A stretch of 64,000 nucleotides of DNA from Mesorhizobium sp. WSM4311 (GTDB lineage: Bacteria > Pseudomonadota > Alphaproteobacteria > Rhizobiales > Rhizobiaceae). Of this stretch, positions 37,461-45,701 are shown in pieces. Numbering within the stretch: position 1 is the first letter of the stretch; each line of letters starts with the position of its first letter. Both the position numbers and the translations under genes were made by a program. The notes under the pieces were generated by a model. That model was not told the origin of the DNA. It saw only the letters and a list, made by a program, of their open reading frames with translations, and made no database searches. The stretch spans positions 620,001-684,000 of the forward strand of contig NZ_NSFV01000002.1 of the NCBI RefSeq assembly GCF_002295115.1. Reading direction: 5' to 3'.

Positions 37461-38582
37461 ATGAAAAAAATGAGTATTTTGAGCGCGGCCATTTTCGGCC
37501 TGATGATGAGTGCGCCGGTGGCATTCGCCGACGACATCACCGTTTCGGTGGTCGGCCCGATGACCGGACAGCTCGCCACCATCGGCGACCAGTTCAAGCA
37601 GGGCGCACAGGCCGCCGCCGACGCCATCAACGCCGCCGGCGGCGTCAACGGCTCGATGATCAAGCTCGACATCGAGGACGACCAGTGCGATCCCAAGCAG
37701 GCCGTGTCGGTCGCCAACCGCATCGTCGCCAACGGCGTCAAGTTCATCGACGGCCATGCCTGCTCGGGCTCGAGCATTCCCGCTTCGGCCGTCTATGCCG
37801 AGGCCGGTGCGCTGATGATGAGCCCGGCTTCCTCGAACCCGGTGCTGACCGACGCGGCCGCCAAGGCCGGCTGGCCGACCATCATGCGCCTCTATACGCG
37901 TGACGATGCACAGGGCGCCTTCATCGGCCCGTGGATCGCCAAGAAATATGCCGGCAAGAATGTCGTCATCCTGCACGACAAGAGCGCTTACGGTCAGGGC
38001 GTGGCCGATGCCGTCAGGGCGACCATGAACACTGGCGGCCTCAAGGAAGTCTATTATGACGCCATCAATCCCGGCGAGAAGGACTATTCGGCGCTCGTCA
38101 CCAAGCTGAAGGATCTCAAGGCCGACGTCGTCTATTTCGGCGGCTACCATCCTGAAGCCGGCCTGATCCTGCGTCAGTCGGCCGAACAAAACCTGAAGTT
38201 CCAGCTGATCATGCCGGACTCCATCGCCTCGCCGGAATTCTGGCAGGTTGCCGGCCCGGCTGGCGAAGGCACCATGTTCGTCTTCCCGTCGGACCCGCAG
38301 GCAAAGCCGGAAGCCAAGGCCGCTGTCGAGAAGATCAAGGCCGGCGGCTTCGTGCCGGAAGGCTTCACGCTGTTCTCCTACGCCGTGGTCCAGGCTTTCG
38401 CCGAAGGCATCAAGCGTGCCGGCAGCGACGATCCGGCCAAGGTTGCCGAGGCGTTGAAGAACGGCACGCCGATCAGCACCGTTGTCGGCGACGTCACCTT
38501 CGACGAGAAGGGCGACCTCAAGAACGCCAGCTACGACATCAACCAGTGGCATGACGGCAAGTACGCGCCGATCGCGCAGTAA
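37461..38582 (+). CDS. Branched-chain amino acid-type ABC substrate-binding protein
   Basis: This 373-residue periplasmic protein (type I fold, Leu/Ile/Val family) has a signal peptide (ILSAAIFGLMMSAPVAFA) and starts its mature part ITVSVVGPMTGQLATIG, with GQQ/GAQAAADAINAAGGVNG-type sequence after it. Cys pair QCDP and HACSG near residues 74 and 98 fits the LivK/LivJ disulfide. No permease or ATPase genes are adjacent, so it must work with a transporter encoded elsewhere. The convergent leucine-degradation genes suggest a leucine-type ligand, which is inference. Confidence 0.88.
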   Translation: MKKMSILSAAIFGLMMSAPVAFADDITVSVVGPMTGQLATIGDQFKQGAQAAADAINAAGGVNGSMIKLDIEDDQCDPKQAVSVANRIVANGVKFIDGHACSGSSIPASAVYAEAGALMMSPASSNPVLTDAAAKAGWPTIMRLYTRDDAQGAFIGPWIAKKYAGKNVVILHDKSAYGQGVADAVRATMNTGGLKEVYYDAINPGEKDYSALVTKLKDLKADVVYFGGYHPEAGLILRQSAEQNLKFQLIMPDSIASPEFWQVAGPAGEGTMFVFPSDPQAKPEAKAAVEKIKAGGFVPEGFTLFSYAVVQAFAEGIKRAGSDDPAKVAEALKNGTPISTVVGDVTFDEKGDLKNASYDINQWHDGKYAPIAQ

Positions 38583-38607
38583 TCTCGGGTAATGATGTAA
38601 TCCAAGG

Positions 38608-38640
38608 AAATGGCCGGGGTTTCCACCCCGGCCATTTTGT
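38608..38640 (+). terminator. Intrinsic terminator between livK and mccA
   Basis: AAATGGCCGGGGT and ACCCCGGCCATTT form a perfect 13-bp stem with a TTCC loop (38608-38637), followed by TGTTG. It lies 25 bases after the binding-protein stop and can also serve the convergent mccA transcript. Confidence 0.85.
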
Positions 38641-38662
38641 TGCCATTCGCGAAGCGTTCCGC

Positions 38663-40648
38663 TTATCGGCCCGCGGCAGCGGTCTGGGCGCTCTGTTCCT
38701 CTACGAACCGCACCAGCACAGTCCCGTCGGTGACCTGCGCCCCTTCCGCGGCGATCTCGGCAACCACCGCGTCATGCGGGGCGGCAATGGTGTGCTCCAT
38801 CTTCATCGCCTCGAGGATCAGCAACGGTTGCCCCTTGATCACCGCGTCGCCCTTAGCCACGCGCACCAGCTTGACCAGCCCGGGCATCGGCGCGCGCAGG
38901 CTGCCGGAAGCGGCGGCCGCGTCGTCGCTCCGTGCCAACGGGTCCGTCACCGCGAATGTGTAGCCGACGGCGCCTTCGAACACCGTGATGTGGCCAGGCC
39001 AGCGGGCAAGGCGCGGAGCGGCGCGAAAATCATGCGAATTGGTGCTGTCATAGGGCGCATCGAGCGCCACCTGGAAGCGCCCGTCCGGCCGCACTGAAAC
39101 CTTTGCCAGTATATCGGCCTCGCCGAACTTCAGCCGCGTGCGCCGCGCCACGCCGTGGAAATGCGCGTAGCCGGAAAGCGACGACCATGGGTCGTTCGAT
39201 GGCGGCAAGGCTGCTGCGCCGGAGGCGGCAAGGGCTGCTGCCGAGACAATTTCGCCGGTCGGCAGCGCGACGCCGGTCAGTGCCGCCTGATGTCTGCCGA
39301 TCAGGCCGGTGTCGACATCACCAGCACAAAAGTCGGGATCGGCGGCAAGGGCGGCAAGGAAACCGGTGTTGACGGTGGAACCGGCGATTTCGGTCCGCGA
39401 CAGCGCCGCGCCGAGCGCTTCCAGCGCTGCTTGCCTGTCCTTTGCATGAACCACCAGCTTGGCGATCATCGGATCGTAATAGGGCGAGATGGCATCGCCG
39501 GCCCGCACGCCGGTCTCGACGCGCATCGTGGCGCCCTCGCAGGCCGCCTCAGGGAACTTCAGATGATGCAGCGTGCCCGTTGCGGGCAGGAACCCCTTTG
39601 CCGCATCCTCGGCATAGATGCGCGCCTCCAGGGCATGACCGCTCAGCGCGATCTCGCTCTGCGTCTTCGGCAGCTTTTCGCCGCTGGCAACCCGCAGCTG
39701 CCACTCGACCAGATCGGTGCCGGTGACCATTTCGGTGACGGGATGCTCGACCTGCAGGCGGGTGTTCATCTCCATGAACCAGAAGCGGTCGGGCTTGAGG
39801 CCTTGCGAGGCATCGACGATGAATTCGATGGTGCCGGCGCCTGAGTAGCCGATCGCCTTGGCGGCCTTCACTGCCGCTTCCGTCATCGCCTTGCGCAGCG
39901 CCGGCGTCATGCCGGGGGCAGGGGCTTCCTCGATCACCTTCTGGTGGCGGCGCTGCGCCGAGCAGTCGCGTTCGTAGAGATGCACCGCGTTGCCGAAATT
40001 GTCGCCGAACACCTGCACTTCTATGTGCCGTGGCTTGTCGACATATTTTTCGACAAGCACGCGGTCGTCGCCGAAAGCAGCCTTTGCCTCGCGCCGGGCG
40101 CTGGACAGCGCCTCGGAGAAATCATCGGGATGCTCGACGCGCCGCATGCCCTTGCCGCCGCCGCCGGCGCGCGCCTTGATCAGCACGGGATAGCCGATCT
40201 CGCGTGCCTTGGAGGCGAGCAGCACGATCTCCTGCGCTTCGCCATGATAGCCTGGAACGACGGGAACGCCGGCTTTCTCCATCAGCCGCTTGGCGGCGTC
40301 CTTCAGCCCCATGGCGCGGATCGAGGCCGCCGATGGGCCGATGAAGGTGAGCCCCGCCGCCACCACCTGGTCGACGAAATCAGGATTTTCCGACAGGAAG
40401 CCGTAACCGGGATGGATGGCCTGCGTCCCCGTCGAAAGCGCCGCCGCAACAATCCGGTCCCCCCGCAAGTAACTCTCACCGACCGGCGAGGGGCCGATGT
40501 GAACGGCCTCGTCGGCCATCTCGACATGCAGGGATTTCGCGTCGGCGTCAGAATAGACGGCGACGGTGTGCACGCCCATCTTGCGGGCCGTGCGGATGAC
40601 ACGGCAGGCGATCTCGCCCCGATTGGCGATCAGGATCTTGCTGAACAT
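38663..40648 (-). CDS. mccA: Methylcrotonyl-CoA carboxylase, biotin-containing alpha subunit
   Basis: This 661-residue subunit has an N-terminal biotin carboxylase (MFSKILIANRGEIACRVIRT, GYGFLSEN, glycine-rich KARAGGGGKGMR, FMEMNTRLQVEHPVTE), a linker domain, and a C-terminal biotinyl domain with the biotin Lys in LEAMKMEHTI. With the beta subunit at 41845-43452 it carboxylates 3-methylcrotonyl-CoA in leucine breakdown. The same fold serves propionyl- and acetyl-CoA carboxylases, but the mccB and ivd neighbours favour methylcrotonyl-CoA. It is the last gene of the minus-strand run. Confidence 0.92.
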   Translation of the reverse strand: MFSKILIANRGEIACRVIRTARKMGVHTVAVYSDADAKSLHVEMADEAVHIGPSPVGESYLRGDRIVAAALSTGTQAIHPGYGFLSENPDFVDQVVAAGLTFIGPSAASIRAMGLKDAAKRLMEKAGVPVVPGYHGEAQEIVLLASKAREIGYPVLIKARAGGGGKGMRRVEHPDDFSEALSSARREAKAAFGDDRVLVEKYVDKPRHIEVQVFGDNFGNAVHLYERDCSAQRRHQKVIEEAPAPGMTPALRKAMTEAAVKAAKAIGYSGAGTIEFIVDASQGLKPDRFWFMEMNTRLQVEHPVTEMVTGTDLVEWQLRVASGEKLPKTQSEIALSGHALEARIYAEDAAKGFLPATGTLHHLKFPEAACEGATMRVETGVRAGDAISPYYDPMIAKLVVHAKDRQAALEALGAALSRTEIAGSTVNTGFLAALAADPDFCAGDVDTGLIGRHQAALTGVALPTGEIVSAAALAASGAAALPPSNDPWSSLSGYAHFHGVARRTRLKFGEADILAKVSVRPDGRFQVALDAPYDSTNSHDFRAAPRLARWPGHITVFEGAVGYTFAVTDPLARSDDAAAASGSLRAPMPGLVKLVRVAKGDAVIKGQPLLILEAMKMEHTIAAPHDAVVAEIAAEGAQVTDGTVLVRFVEEQSAQTAAAGR

Positions 40649-40774
40649 GGAGCCTCCGTAGCCAGGCCTTGCTGAAAGCGACGCAGGCGTTCCTTCGCGC
40701 CCCCTCTGGGTCGCAAACCTATATGGATAGGCTTTCCGTTTGCCGGATGCTGCCTTGCAGTTCGGCACTTGATA

Positions 40775-40805
40775 TAGAGCGCCCCCTTACCAAGGGAGCG
40801 CTCTA
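40775..40805. repeat. Hairpin between small exported gene and mccA
   Basis: TAGAGCGC (40775-40782) and GCGCTCTA (40798-40805) with inner CCCTT/AAGGG give a nearly perfect 13-bp stem with one mismatch and a 3-base loop. No T-run follows on the minus strand. It may modulate read-through from the upstream operon genes into mccA. Confidence 0.55.
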
Positions 40806-40823
40806 CGAGCGAAGCGCATGTGC

Positions 40824-41192
40824 CTATTTCGATGCCGAGATCGCGCAGCCGCCACTTGCGGTCTTTAGCTTCCAACGCGTCAATCCAGCCTGGCAGTTGC
40901 GCAGCGCCATCTCCTCCGCGGCCTTCTGGGAAGGTGCGTTGAGCTTCGTCCCGCAGATGATGTAGAGGTCGACGACTCGCGAATAAAAGGTCGCGGCGTA
41001 GGCCGAATGACCGCTCGCCGCAACGTAGCCCTTGTAGGCAACGTTGCATTCGCCCGAGCCCACGGTCGGCGGAAAACGCACGTCTCCCTTGCTTCCTGCG
41101 AGTGATCCGGCCTGGCCGGCGCCAGCTGTGGTGAATATTAGTATGGATGCAAGTATCGAGGCAGCCATCCCCCGGCAATATTTCAGTTCCAT
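40824..41192 (-). CDS. Small exported protein of unknown function
   Basis: The 122-residue protein has a signal peptide (AASILASILIFTTAGAGQAGS) and a mature domain with conserved-looking Cys (SGECNVAYKGYVAAS, IICGTK, NCQAG, GGCAI). The pattern AAEEMALRNCQAG near the end recalls the repeat of DUF4189-type exported domains, but I cannot confirm it. It lies between the macrodomain gene and mccA, all on the minus strand. Start 41192 was chosen to begin at the signal; 41219 is possible. Its presence in a cytoplasmic catabolic operon is unexplained. Confidence 0.6.
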   Translation of the reverse strand: MELKYCRGMAASILASILIFTTAGAGQAGSLAGSKGDVRFPPTVGSGECNVAYKGYVAASGHSAYAATFYSRVVDLYIICGTKLNAPSQKAAEEMALRNCQAGLTRWKLKTASGGCAISASK

Positions 41193-41312
41193 TCCCACCC
41201 TGTCCCCATTGCATTGCACGGGACAAGCAGTAGCGAATATTTTGTCTCGACGCCAGTTCGCCAGCGGAGATTCGACGCTGCCTATGCTGATGAATCGATT
41301 GGTCCATACAGT

Positions 41313-41843
41313 TCAACCCTTCCGGAGCGCAGCAACGGTTCGCCGGTATAGTTCCGCCGTATGCTCGTCGAAGCAGCAGAAGATGACGGTTTCGGGCATG
41401 GGTTTCTCTTCAATGATCATGCTGACAGTACCGACGGCGATTTCGGTCGCCTCAGCCCTGGGGTAGCGGTAAACACCGGTCGAGATCGCGGGAAACGCCA
41501 CCGAATGGCAATCATTGGCGGTCGCGAGTTCCAGCGACCTGCGATAGCAAGAGGCCAGCAGTTCGGCTTCGCCCTTGCCGCCGCCCTGCCAGACCGGCCC
41601 GACCGTGTGGATGACATGTCGAGCCGGCAGCTTGTAACCCTTGGTGATCTTGGCGTCGCCGACCCTGCATCCGTTCAACATCCGGCATTCGACCTCGAGC
41701 TCACGACCCGCCGCGCGGTGGATGGCGCCATCGACTCCACCGCCGCCGAGAAGCGAGGTGTTGGCGGCATTGACGATGGCGTCGACATCCAGCTTCGTGA
41801 TGTCCCCGGTGTGAATGCGGATCCTGTCCAACGCCTTGCTCAT
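41313..41843 (-). CDS. Macrodomain protein, O-acetyl-ADP-ribose deacetylase type
   Basis: This 176-residue protein is a single macrodomain of the MacroD/YmdB class: [20 protein letters not shown] with the conserved Asn and Gly-rich loop, [20 protein letters not shown], and [12 protein letters not shown] near the C-terminal third. Such enzymes hydrolyse O-acetyl-ADP-ribose and sometimes ADP-ribose on proteins. Its ATG comes one base after the mccB stop, with AGGA seven bases upstream, so translation must be coupled to mccB. A role tied to acyl-CoA metabolism is suggested by this coupling alone. Confidence 0.92.
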
Positions 41844-41844
41844 C

Positions 41845-43452
41845 TCACATCCTGAACACGCCGAAGCGCGTGTCCTCGATCTCGGCGTTGAGCGACGCGG
41901 AAAGGCTGAGCGCCAGCACCTCGCGCGTCTTCGCCGGATCGATGATGCCGTCGTCCCAGAGGCGGGCCGACGAGTAGAGCGGATGGCCCTCATGCTCGTA
42001 TTTCATCAGGATCGGCTTCTTGAATTTCGCTTCCTCCTCGGCGCTCCACTCGCCGCCCTTGCGCTCGATGCCTTCGCGCTTGACCATGGCGAGCACGGTT
42101 GCCGCCTGTTCGCCGCCCATCACCGAGATGCGCGCATTCGGCCACATCCACAGGAAGCGCGGCGAGTAAGCGCGGCCGCACATGCCGTAATTGCCGGCGC
42201 CGAACGAGCCGCCGATGATCACGGTCACCTTCGGCACCCTGGCGGTGGCAACCGCCATCACCAGCTTGGCGCCATCCTTGGCAATGCCGCCGGCCTCGTA
42301 TTTCCGGCCGACCATGAAGCCGGTGATGTTCTGCAGAAAGACCAGCGGGATCCCGCGCTGGCAGCACAGCTCGATGAAATGCGCGCCCTTCAGCGCGCTT
42401 TCGGAAAACAGCACGCCATTGTTGGCGATGATGCCGACCGGCATGCCGTGGAGATGGGCAAAACCGGTGATCAGCGTCGTGCCGTAATTCTGCTTGAACT
42501 CGTCGAACTCGGAACCGTCGACGAGGCGCGCGATCACCTCGCGCACGTCATAGGGCTGGCGCAAATCGGTCGGCACGACGCCGTAGAGTTCATCCGCCGG
42601 ATGAAGCGGCGGAATCGATCTCTGTAAGTTCAGGCTTACGGTCTTGTTCCGATTCAGGTTTTTGACTATGCGCCGGCAGATGGCGAGCGCATGTTCGTCG
42701 TCCATCGCATAGTGGTCGGCAACGCCGGAGAGCCGCGTATGCACATCCGCGCCCCCCAGATCCTCGGCGCTGACGTCCTCGCCGGTGGCCGCCTTCACCA
42801 GCGGTGGGCCGCCGAGAAAAATGGTTGCCTGGTTGCGCACCATGATCGTCTCGTCCGACATCGCCGGCACATAGGCGCCTCCGGCCGTGCAGGACCCCAT
42901 GACACAGGCGATCTGCGGGATGCCGGCAGCCGACATGTTGGCCTGGTTGTAGAAGATGCGGCCGAAATGCTCGCGGTCGGGAAACACCTCGTCCTGGTTG
43001 GGCAGATTGGCGCCGCCGCTGTCGACCAGATAGATGCAGGGCAGATTGTTCTGCAGCGCGATTTCCTGCGCGCGCAGATGCTTTTTCACCGTCAATGGAT
43101 AGTAGGTGCCGCCCTTCACCGTGGCATCGTTGACGACGACCATCACCTCGGTGCCCTCGACCCGGCCGACGCCGGCGATCATGCCGGCCGAGGAAATCTC
43201 CTCGCCATACATCGACCACGCCGCGAACTGGCCGATCTCGAGGAAGGGCGAACCAGTGTCGAGCAATTGTGCCAGGCGTTCGCGCGGCAGCAGCTTGCCA
43301 CGCGAAATATGGCGCTCGCGCGCCTCCTCCGAGCCGCCGCGCTCGACGGTCACGGCCTTTTCGGCGATGTCGGCGACCAGCGCGCGCATGCGATCGGCAT
43401 TGGCGCGGAAGATGTCGGAGGAGGGGGAGATCTGAGTCTGCAGGACGGCCAT
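41845..43452 (-). CDS. mccB: Methylcrotonyl-CoA carboxylase beta subunit
   Basis: The 535-residue carboxyltransferase subunit has the crotonase-type N- and C-domains ([78 protein letters not shown]). The sequence NITGFMVG and length match methylcrotonyl-CoA rather than propionyl-CoA carboxylases. The gene overlaps or abuts ivd: a GTG at 43458 would overlap the ivd stop by four bases (GTGA), and ATG 43452 starts two codons later. It transfers carboxyl from biotin on MccA. Confidence 0.94.
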
Positions 43453-43454
43453 GC

Positions 43455-44618
43455 TCACACCCCCTCCGCCATGATCTCGCGGCCGATGAGCCAGCGCCGG
43501 ATTTCGCTGGTGCCGGCGCCGATCTCGTAAAGCTTGGCGTCGCGCAGCAGCCGGCCGGTCGGATAATCGTTGATGTAGCCGTTGCCGCCCAGCAGCTGGA
43601 TGGCGTCCAACGCCATCTGCGTCGCCTTTTCGGCGGCGAACAAAACACAGCCGGCGGCGTCCTTGCGGGTGGTCTGGCCGCGGTCGCAGGCGGCCGCGAC
43701 GGCGTAGACGTAGGCGCGCGCGGCGTTCATCACCGTGTACATGTCGGCAAGCTTGCCTTGCACCAGCTGAAACTCGCCGATCGGCTGGCCGAACTGCTTG
43801 CGTTCGTGCACATAGGGAATCACCACGTCGAGGCAGGCTGCCATCAGGCCGATCGGGCCGCCGGCGAGCACCGTGCGCTCATAGTCTAGGCCCGACATCA
43901 GCACCTCGACGCCGCGTCCTTCCTCATGCAGCAAATTGTCGAACGGCACCTCGACATTTTCAAACACCAGTTCGCCGGTGCTGGAACCGCGCATGCCGAG
44001 CTTGTCGAGTTTCTGCGCCACGGAAAACCCTGCAAAAGCCTTTTCGACGATGAAGGCGGTGATGCCGCGCGATTTCCGCTCCGGATCGGTCTTGGCATAG
44101 ACAACCAGCGTATCCGCGTCCGGGCCGTTGGTGATCCACATCTTGGTGCCGTTGAGCACATAGCGGTCATTGCGCTTTTCGGCGCGCAGTTTGAGCGAGA
44201 CGACGTCCGAGCCGGCGCCGGATTCAGACATCGCCAACGCGCCGACACGCTCGCCCGAACACAGCGGCGGCAGGAACTTTTCCTTCTGCGCCGGCGTCGC
44301 CCAGCGGTTGATCTGGTTGACGCAGAGGTTGGAGTGGGCGCCGTAGGAAAGACCGACCGAAGCCGACGCGCGGGAGATTTCCTCCACCGCAATCACATGG
44401 GCGAGATAACCCATGCCGCTGCCGCCGAAATCGGGATCGGCGGTGATGCCGAGCAGGCCGAGTTCGCCGAGCTCGCGCCACAGATGCACCGGAAATTCGT
44501 TCTGGCGGTCGATATCGCCGGCGATCGGGGCGATCCTGTCCTGGGCGAAGCGCCGCACCATATCGCGCAGCGCCTCGATGTCCTCGTCATGCCCGAAGCT
44601 GAGCGTGTTGGTGTACAT
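43455..44618 (-). CDS. ivd: Isovaleryl-CoA dehydrogenase
   Basis: This 387-residue acyl-CoA dehydrogenase has the family signatures [17 protein letters not shown] and [20 protein letters not shown]. The catalytic Glu of isovaleryl-CoA dehydrogenases sits earlier than in other members ([11 protein letters not shown]), and that segment is present. It oxidises isovaleryl-CoA to 3-methylcrotonyl-CoA and passes electrons to ETF and then ETF-QO. ATG 44618 follows a 74-base gap after the TetR gene that contains repeat copy 6. It is the first catabolic gene of the leucine run. Confidence 0.94.
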
Positions 44619-44633
44619 GGCGTTCCTCCCGCC

Positions 44634-44677
44634 GCATGACCTCGAAAATCGACTTCGATTTTCGGAAAGGATCATGC
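44634..44677. repeat. Palindromic intergenic repeat, copy 6
   Basis: Outer GCATGA (44634-44639) / TCATGC (44672-44677) and a perfect 9-bp inner stem CGAAAATCG / CGATTTTCG with a 4-base loop (44643-44664). It lies between tetR and ivd, within the presumed operon. Confidence 0.72.
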
Positions 44678-44691
44678 GCAAAATTCAAGTG

Positions 44692-45333
44692 CTACAGCGT
44701 CCTTTGCACGTCCGAGGGACGTGCGGCGCTGTCGGTATCCATCCTCGCGCCAACCAGGCGCATTGTCATCGAAAGATATGTCGCCGTCACTTCAGTGACC
44801 GACAGCCGCTCGCCCGGGCGAAACCAGACGATGACGCCGGTCATCATCTGGATCAGCGCCATGGCCGTCAGACCGGTGTCCTCGATGCTGAAGTCGCCGG
44901 CCTCGGCGCCTTCGCGCAGGATGCTGCGCAGTTCCTTTTCGTAGGCTGTGCGCATGCGCAGGATCTGTGTCAGCCTGTCGGGCGACAGGCTGCGCAGTTC
45001 CATGTTCGACACATGCGTGGCATGCCGGCGCTCGATGTGGAAGGCGATGTGGTTGCGCACATAGGCCGCAAGCTGCTCCGCCGGATCTGCATCGGTTGGC
45101 CTCGCGTGTTCCCAGGCCTGGCGAAGCCCCTCCATGTGCTCGCGCATCAGCGTGAACAGCAGGTCTTCCTTGGTCGGGAAATAGCGGTAGAGCGCGGCCG
45201 CCTGCACGCCGACCTCGGCCGCCAGCCGCCGCATCGACATCGCCTCGTAGCCATGGCGTGCGATCAGGTTGACCGCCGCTTCGCGGACTGCCGCCTCGGT
45301 TCGCTCGCCGTCGGATCCCGTGGTGCGCGCCAT
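44692..45333 (-). CDS. TetR-family regulator, probable regulator of leucine catabolism
   Basis: The 213-residue protein has an N-terminal TetR helix-turn-helix (AAVNLIARHGYEAMSMRRLA, AAALYRYFPTKEDLLFTLMR) and a helical ligand-binding domain that includes HATHVSNMELRSLSPD. It is the first gene of the minus-strand run tetR, ivd, mccB, macrodomain, exported protein, mccA. A perfect GAACGTTC palindrome lies about 30 bases upstream, so it probably represses its own transcript and with it the catabolic genes. An acyl-CoA intermediate is the likely inducer by analogy with related regulators. Confidence 0.88.
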   Translation of the reverse strand: MARTTGSDGERTEAAVREAAVNLIARHGYEAMSMRRLAAEVGVQAAALYRYFPTKEDLLFTLMREHMEGLRQAWEHARPTDADPAEQLAAYVRNHIAFHIERRHATHVSNMELRSLSPDRLTQILRMRTAYEKELRSILREGAEAGDFSIEDTGLTAMALIQMMTGVIVWFRPGERLSVTEVTATYLSMTMRLVGARMDTDSAARPSDVQRTL

Positions 45334-45361
45334 GTTCGCCTCGTCAAGCCGACAATAATAA

Positions 45362-45375
45362 AACGAACGTTCAAT
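45362..45375. promoter_or_regulatory. Probable TetR operator
   Basis: GAACGTTC (45365-45372) is an exact palindrome in an AT-rich stretch (AAACGAACGTTCAATTAATT) 32 bases upstream of the TetR start. Related TetR regulators of fatty and branched acyl catabolism bind sites with an ACG/CGT core of this kind. The copy is absent from the tetR-ivd gap. Confidence 0.55.
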
Positions 45376-45416
45376 TAATTCAAGAGTGTCGGGCTAGTCA
45401 AGTAATGCGCATGCGC

Positions 45417-45701
45417 CTATGCGACGATTTTGAAATCTCCAGGCGCGGTCCAGGTCTCGATCTCCTCGACATCGACCCGCGAGACTGAAGCGCCCACCGG
45501 GCCCTGCCAAAGCCGTTCGATCATGGACGAAACCGCCGTTTCGGCGCCGGCGAGCCATGCCGTTACCGTGCCGTCTCTTTCGTTGCGCACCCAGCCCACC
45601 AGCCCAAGCCCTGCCGCTTCGCCTCTCGCCCAGATCCTGTAGCCGACGCCTTGCACCCTGCCGTGTACGCGGGCCTGCACGGCCCTTTTCCGATCGTTCA
45701 T
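45417..45701 (-). CDS. acyP: Acylphosphatase
   Basis: This 94-residue enzyme has the acylphosphatase signature: catalytic Arg in VHGRVQGVGYR and Asn in GWVRNERDGTV. It hydrolyses carboxyl-phosphate bonds such as acetyl phosphate or carbamoyl phosphate. ATG 45701 gives the usual length; the frame continues upstream to 45833 through non-family sequence. It is divergent from the MarR gene; a dyad lies between them. Confidence 0.92.
   Translation of the reverse strand: MNDRKRAVQARVHGRVQGVGYRIWARGEAAGLGLVGWVRNERDGTVTAWLAGAETAVSSMIERLWQGPVGASVSRVDVEEIETWTAPGDFKIVA

Follow-up and report, generated by a model that had tools for sequence, protein, structure and literature searches.

A MacroD-type macrodomain gene linked to the methylcrotonyl-CoA carboxylase genes of Mesorhizobium and related genera

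Introduction

MacroD enzymes cleave O-acetyl-ADP-ribose, and the physiological roles of the microbial members are called understudied in the excerpts of the source used here (PMC7050489). SirTM-linked macrodomains are described in the same excerpts as carrying an extended zinc-binding catalytic loop, which replaces the glycine-rich stretch (PMC7050489). The closest described precedent for a macrodomain that is co-encoded with a carrier protein is the SirTM/macrodomain/GcvH-L/LplA2 operon, in which GcvH-L carries lipoate and the macrodomain removes ADP-ribose from this lipoyl carrier protein encoded beside it. As excerpted, the same study states that YmdB and MacroD1 failed to remove the modification, and it names methylcrotonyl-CoA carboxylase (MCC) as a biotinylated protein (PMC4518038). 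The failure of YmdB and MacroD1 cautions against assuming that a YmdB-type enzyme has the activity of the SirTM-operon macrodomain. MCC is also connected to sirtuins, as SIRT4 acts on the mitochondrial enzyme (MCCC2) according to the excerpt of PMC12080386.

Here, a 64,000-nucleotide stretch of DNA from Mesorhizobium sp. WSM4311 (the window) was analyzed, in which a macrodomain gene lies within a putative leucine-degradation operon. The encoded protein resembles E. coli YmdB and human MacroD1 and MacroD2 in its family, its near full-length alignment, the catalytic Asn, Asp and Tyr residues and the glycine-rich loops; unlike them, it is set inside an mcc operon. With the SirTM operon it shares a co-encoded carrier, as the C-terminal biotinyl domain of MccA matches Pfam Biotin_lipoyl, whereas no sirtuin adjoins, the sequence features of the macrodomain are not those of the zinc type and the gene is paired with a catabolic carboxylase. 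Given this near precedent, the claim of an earlier sequence-only reading that no such bacterial system had been described was too strong. The likeness to SIRT4 lies in MCC, a leucine-pathway enzyme, being tied to NAD-dependent chemistry; in contrast, a sirtuin match is absent from most of the bacteria concerned, and the macrodomain would likely be an eraser of ADP-ribose esters and not a deacylase. No report of an mcc-linked macrodomain was found among the titles listed in searches of the open-licence literature, nor an open-licence paper that combines Mesorhizobium and 'macro domain'. What appears to be new is the mcc setting and not the protein family. Bacterial MacroD physiology is little known, and a macrodomain in a catabolic operon of mostly sirtuin-free genomes helps the search for a role.

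Organization of the mcc locus

The genes of the locus were assigned from open reading frames and Pfam matches and follow each other on the minus strand in the order tetR, ivd, mccB, macrodomain gene, small secreted-protein gene, mccA (Table 1). As expected of an mcc operon, ivd, mccB and mccA share their orientation and a regulator gene lies upstream, from which we infer co-transcription and substrate specificity. Names of pathway enzymes beyond the Pfam families were taken from gene context, and it is the ivd-mccB-mccA context that points to MCC and not to another acyl-CoA carboxylase.

Table 1. Genes of the mcc locus in the window
Gene	Product	Position	Strand	Evidence and remarks
tetR	TetR-family regulator, upstream of ivd	44692..45333	-	PF00440, PF17932; same position in relatives
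ivd	isovaleryl-CoA dehydrogenase-like acyl-CoA dehydrogenase	43455..44681	-	PF00441/PF02770/PF02771; specific name from context
mccB	methylcrotonyl-CoA carboxylase beta (carboxyltransferase) subunit	41845..43458	-	PF01039 8e-157; GTG start, or in-frame ATG 43452
macrodomain gene	MacroD/YmdB-type, 176 aa, predicted ADP-ribose-ester hydrolase	41313..41843	-	PF01661 2.4e-47; NF001664 above cut-off; best PDB matches 5cb3, 1spv
small gene	putative secreted protein, between macrodomain gene and mccA	40824..41219	-	signal-like N-terminus by eye; four conserved cysteines
mccA	biotin carboxylase + biotinyl domain subunit	38663..40648	-	PF00289, PF02786, PF02785, PF00364

If mccB begins at its GTG, its reading frame shares 4 bp with that of ivd. 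The ATG of the macrodomain gene (41843) is situated one base past the mccB stop codon (TGA, 41847-41845), as the sequence-only reading had noted. It had further proposed that mccA comes next, so that the macrodomain gene splits the two subunit genes and is translated with both. The gene does lie between mccB and mccA, and its spacing makes translational coupling with mccB plausible. The mccA start (ATG 40648, picked by eye behind a GGAGG site), however, is 664 bp away from the macrodomain stop with the small secreted-protein gene in between, and given this gap translational coupling with mccA would not be plausible. A promoter and terminator scan returned 3 and 7 sites, respectively, versus 1.3 and 6.3 in shuffled sequences, and no hit above the gathering score was obtained in an Rfam scan of 38500-45500. 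The name LiuQ was not applied to the TetR-family gene, because in the excerpt of PMC5343134 this TetR regulator is stated to be unique to betaproteobacteria.

Family and active site of the macrodomain

The Pfam Macro match of the protein reached 160 bits, and the NCBIfam model NF001664 'O-acetyl-ADP-ribose deacetylase' scored 230.9 bits against a cut-off of 200, while ten other NCBIfam macro models stayed below their own cut-offs. Solved structures align over nearly the full length, with E=1.5e-53 for 5cb3; this entry and 1spv we take to be E. coli YmdB. N28, D38, Y125 and the glycine-rich loop G34-G36, the residues typical of MacroD enzymes, are present. Judged by these features, the protein is an ordinary MacroD/YmdB-type macrodomain of a known family, in agreement with the enzyme class assigned to it in the sequence-only reading. 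The PDB sequences 5cb5 and 5cms, which belong to the same enzyme, show Ala opposite N28/D38 and Y125 and were taken for active-site mutants.

Features of SirTM-linked macrodomains were not seen. The glycine-rich motif GGGGVDGAI is present, and NF003163 'protein-ADP-ribose hydrolase', presumably the model for the zinc-type macrodomain, scored 165.7, below its cut-off of 272. An adjacent sirtuin gene was found neither at the macrodomain gene of the window nor in the relatives searched.

In an alignment, N25, N28, G34-G36, D38 and Y125 were identical in all 32 mcc-linked sequences of the family, and among 62 unlinked sequences N28 was present in 59, D38 in 58 and Y125 in 56. Comparison of linked and unlinked sequences revealed no active-site change specific to the linked clade that would hint at a special substrate. 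Residue frequencies differ at positions 93, 105, 143 and 159, and the Gly usual at position 57 is lost; neither was read as a specificity switch. The median dN/dS within congeners was 0.21 for the macrodomain gene (150 pairs), 0.08 for mccB (150 pairs) and 0.06 for mccA (125 pairs). The macrodomain thus evolves faster than its neighbours, and by this measure the gene is under purifying selection that is weaker than on mccB and mccA. The genome of the window also harbors a second, distant macrodomain gene (L077:5321-5788, G000:C43), which encodes 155 aa with a PF01661 score of 31 bits and appears ALC1/TARG1-like by eye.

Spread of the linkage to mcc genes

The macrodomain gene was present in 26 of 37 same-genus genomes (that of the window and 36 others), each time between mccB and mccA. 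For this count mccB was inside the short locus in 25 genomes; in G001, where an insert of about 5 kb intervenes, it was found only in a longer locus, as was mccA of G018. In the 25 congener loci holding mccB, an in-frame macrodomain start follows the mccB stop by 1, 2 or 3 bases in 10, 14 and 1 cases, respectively. This positional conservation exceeds chance, and recurrence at mcc loci of relatives, on which the sequence-only reading had made its proposal depend, was borne out both in the genus and beyond it.

In a sample of 151 genomes of the family, 28 near full-length macrodomain matches and one fragment were detected, and mccB was present in 110 (E up to 1e-180). Both genes occurred in 20 genomes and were at most 8 kb apart in seven (G000, G012, G081, G093, G109, G124 and G149); in 12 of the rest no mcc gene was near the macrodomain gene. 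G190 is an eighth linked genome, with the macrodomain gene near mccA and mccB on another contig. A macrodomain gene near an mcc gene was absent from 102 of the 110 mccB-bearing genomes. Six genomes of five other genera, and in addition a named Pseudaminobacter, have the macrodomain gene near mccB, mccA or both. The order is mccB-macro-mccA in Pseudaminobacter arsenicus and, tightly packed, in G124 and G109; mccB-LysE-macro-mccA in G081; macro-LysE-mccA in G190 and in G093, there 7 kb from mccB; and mccB-macro, 420 bp apart, in G149, with no mccA within the fetched stretch. The linkage is thus genuine, and several genera have conserved it. In genera g46 and g58 the interval was also seen to contain a LysE-type transporter gene beside the macrodomain gene (L063, L064, L072), joined in g58 by a GST-like gene.

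Among 289 genomes of the class, 65 had a macrodomain match and 150 had mccB. Among the class matches listed, only G442 besides the genome of the window has both within 12 kb; at a distance of 10 kb (L065) it was not counted as linked, whereas G001 was counted despite its insert. At 60 other macrodomain loci (40 from the class and 20 further ones from the family or order), no mccA or mccB was detected at E 1e-3 in flanks of up to about 4.5 kb on each side, less at contig ends; one of these loci (L134) gave weak acyl-CoA dehydrogenase matches. The remaining class loci were compared with mccB by coordinates alone. In a titled collection, 4 of 80 loci were linked (Mesorhizobium sangaii, M. qingshengii, M. 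sp. AR07 and Pseudaminobacter arsenicus), these being the best 80 of 589 matches with flanks of up to 6 kb. In G050, from another family, the macrodomain gene directly follows an mccA-like gene (51% identity) on a 7-kb contig; it was labelled linked in the macrodomain tree and left out of the counts of 32. Clustering of the neighbours of 63 unlinked macrodomain genes yielded in the about 14 largest clusters mainly shadow frames and one transporter, presumably MFS/AmpG-like, in 13 of 63 loci; no leucine-related neighbour was recognised in these clusters.

Evolutionary history of the macrodomain gene

In a tree of 97 macrodomain sequences (midpoint root, many weak inner branches), the mcc-linked copies of the family fell into one clade of 34 rows (SH-aLRT 92), which also holds two unlinked members, G205 and G062, the latter without an mccB match. 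The linked label required 3 changes compared with a mean of 27.6 after shuffling; the G050 sequence lies outside this clade. On an mccB tree of 49 rows, macrodomain presence was patchy, with 12 changes versus a shuffled mean of 13.1; the value was no higher in 148 of 500 shuffles. The core Mesorhizobium clade of this tree (SH-aLRT 98) comprises 35 rows: 28 with the macrodomain gene, 6 scarred and 1 traceless. Losses affected 7 of 18 rows in one subclade (SH-aLRT 92) and 0 of 17 elsewhere in the core clade (Fisher p = 0.008, kinship ignored).

Ten congeners have mcc genes and no macrodomain gene, and six of these show apparent deletion scars. Behind mccB of G030, G014 and G025, the macrodomain gene end and trailing sequence remain (blastn E 4e-36, 2e-34 and 5e-15, respectively), and G025 also keeps a remnant of the start; a short start-like remnant was recognised by eye in G022, G031 and G033. 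The macrodomain-free congeners G005, G006 and G013 are scarless and lie outside the core clade, while G024 has neither macrodomain gene nor mccB. From these patterns we conclude that the gene was ancestral in the core genus and then lost repeatedly; outside the core genus, gain or exchange may have occurred. As mccB and mccA stayed while the macrodomain gene was lost, MCC does not need it: on this record the macrodomain is dispensable and the leucine genes persist after its deletion. In G001, the 5-kb insert (L067:8370-13370), which encodes a class III cyclase/TPR protein and a B12-binding radical SAM protein, parts mccB and a 25-residue remnant of the macrodomain start from an intact macrodomain gene.

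Sirtuin and KptA genes in macrodomain-bearing genomes

Sirtuin genes were sought with PF02146 (SIR2 family), a model that may miss class M sirtuins, in the genome of the window, 61 relatives and 12 chosen genomes. No match was obtained in the genome of the window, while the same search was positive in 10 of 14 control genomes. A match was found in 20 of 61 relatives. Among the 37 congeners just 5 had one, namely 4 of the 26 carriers of the macrodomain gene and 1 of the 11 non-carriers (Fisher p = 1), so that 22 of the 26 carriers, the genome of the window included, had none. Of the remaining six linked genomes in the family, three carry a sirtuin and three lack one; taken over all 32 tested mcc-linked genomes, 25 lack a match to the SIR2 family, which would produce O-acyl-ADP-ribose, and 7 have one. 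G050 also carries a sirtuin. The sequence-only reading had envisaged a sirtuin gene nearby; none was found near the macrodomain gene in the relatives searched, and where a genome has both, the two genes are on different contigs or over 100 kb apart. Among the congeners, 6 of 26 carriers of the macrodomain gene and 0 of 11 non-carriers had KptA (PF01885), a weak and non-significant link (p = 0.15). No ADP-ribosyltransferase partner was thus found in the two families searched, SIR2 and KptA.

Possible role of the macrodomain

The explanation that we favour, and to which we give about an even chance, is an active ADP-ribose-ester hydrolase that is made together with MCC, acts on esters of non-sirtuin origin and is accessory to the leucine operon. 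A catalytically competent MacroD-type macrodomain would hydrolyse ester bonds to ADP-ribose, and one Rhizobiaceae/Phyllobacteriaceae lineage appears to have taken such a gene into its leucine-degradation operon between mccB and mccA. Co-transcription with mccB and translational coupling to it are probable there, and the protein would be made while leucine is burned. As its substrate we consider an ADP-ribosyl ester of non-sirtuin origin the most likely, e.g. mono-ADP-ribose on Asp or Glu of a protein, with MCC or another enzyme of the leucine pathway as a candidate target; its role would be accessory, the leucine genes remaining upon its deletion. In favour of this reading are the family and its conserved catalytic residues, the conserved position, the single clade of linked copies, the purifying selection and the lack of a sirtuin match in 22 of 26 carriers. 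Against it count the lack of an ADP-ribosyltransferase partner in the two families searched, the repeated losses with mccB and mccA retained, the patchy presence on the mccB tree, the faster evolution, the 102 of 110 mccB-bearing family genomes without the linkage and the lack of an active-site change specific to the clade. The analogy to SirTM, together with the Biotin_lipoyl match of MccA, suggests that an ADP-ribosyl mark could be placed on MCC or a neighbour enzyme by a non-sirtuin writer. A more specific version is improbable in our estimate: the macrodomain would erase a reversible mark on MCC, possibly on the lipoyl-like biotinyl domain of MccA, as the carboxylase counterpart of the SirTM/GcvH-L switch with a non-sirtuin writer. 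The macrodomain genes of G190, near mccA with mccB elsewhere, and of G050, directly behind its mccA-like gene, fit such an eraser, whereas that of G149, with mccB but no mccA detected in its vicinity, does not. The mcc-linked macrodomain offers a defined condition (growth on leucine), the candidate targets Ivd, MccB and MccA, and natural deletion variants in sister strains.

Alternatively, the protein may be a housekeeping hydrolase of an ADP-ribose metabolite with no tie to leucine, whose gene came to lie in the operon, benefits from the expression there and has since been carried along. This we regard as a possible but less probable account, and a close rival, not much less likely than the operon-linked reading, because the macrodomain is dispensable and faster-evolving and because in relatives its interval is shared with unrelated genes (LysE, GST, secreted protein). 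The deletion scars and the losses in one subclade, the patchy presence on the mccB tree, the absence of mcc genes from all 60 macrodomain loci elsewhere and the G149 arrangement all agree with such a passenger. Against it stand three observations: all 26 macrodomain-bearing congeners, and other genera too, keep the gene in this place; its start comes 1-3 bases after the mccB stop in each of 25 loci; and in G093 and G190 it still lies close to mccA, separated by a LysE gene alone, though mccB is distant.

The sequence-only reading had proposed that the macrodomain clears branched O-acyl-ADP-ribose arising when a sirtuin strips leucine-derived acyl groups from lysines. In favour of this model are the cleavage of O-acetyl-ADP-ribose by MacroD enzymes (PMC7050489) and the ability of 3-methylglutaconyl-CoA to acylate proteins, reported in the excerpt of PMC11356580, and seven of the 32 linked genomes do carry a sirtuin. 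As the other 25 lack a PF02146 match and no association was seen among the 37 congeners, a sirtuin link was rejected as a general explanation and this model is very unlikely. The second role suggested in that reading, repair of ADP-ribosylated enzymes of the pathway, may still apply. KptA/Tpt1, an RNA 2'-phosphotransferase, yields an ADP-ribose phosphate as its product. That the macrodomain acts on this product gains something from the confinement of KptA to macrodomain-bearing congeners, but with p = 0.15 and 20 of 26 carriers, the genome of the window among them, lacking a KptA match, we attach hardly any weight to it.

Other elements of the mccB-mccA interval

The small secreted-protein gene recurs in congeners as none to three divergent tandem copies with 43-84% identity (L008, L010, L011, L085 and others). 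At E 0.001 the protein matched neither Pfam nor NCBIfam, and a scan with an alignment gave marginal Pfam matches only, e.g. DUF4189. It was considered whether it forms one cassette with the macrodomain, which was rejected as the secreted-protein gene stays in 6 of the 10 macrodomain-free congener mcc loci. Upstream of mccA, at 40784-40806 on the minus strand, lies a 23-base piece that is one base off part of tRNA-Thr(GGT), of which an intact matching gene is located on another contig of the same genome. The piece may be an integration scar or a mobile repeat, and among the fetched loci five other genomes (G002, G011, G028, G031 and M. sp. AR07) likewise have it between mccB and mccA.
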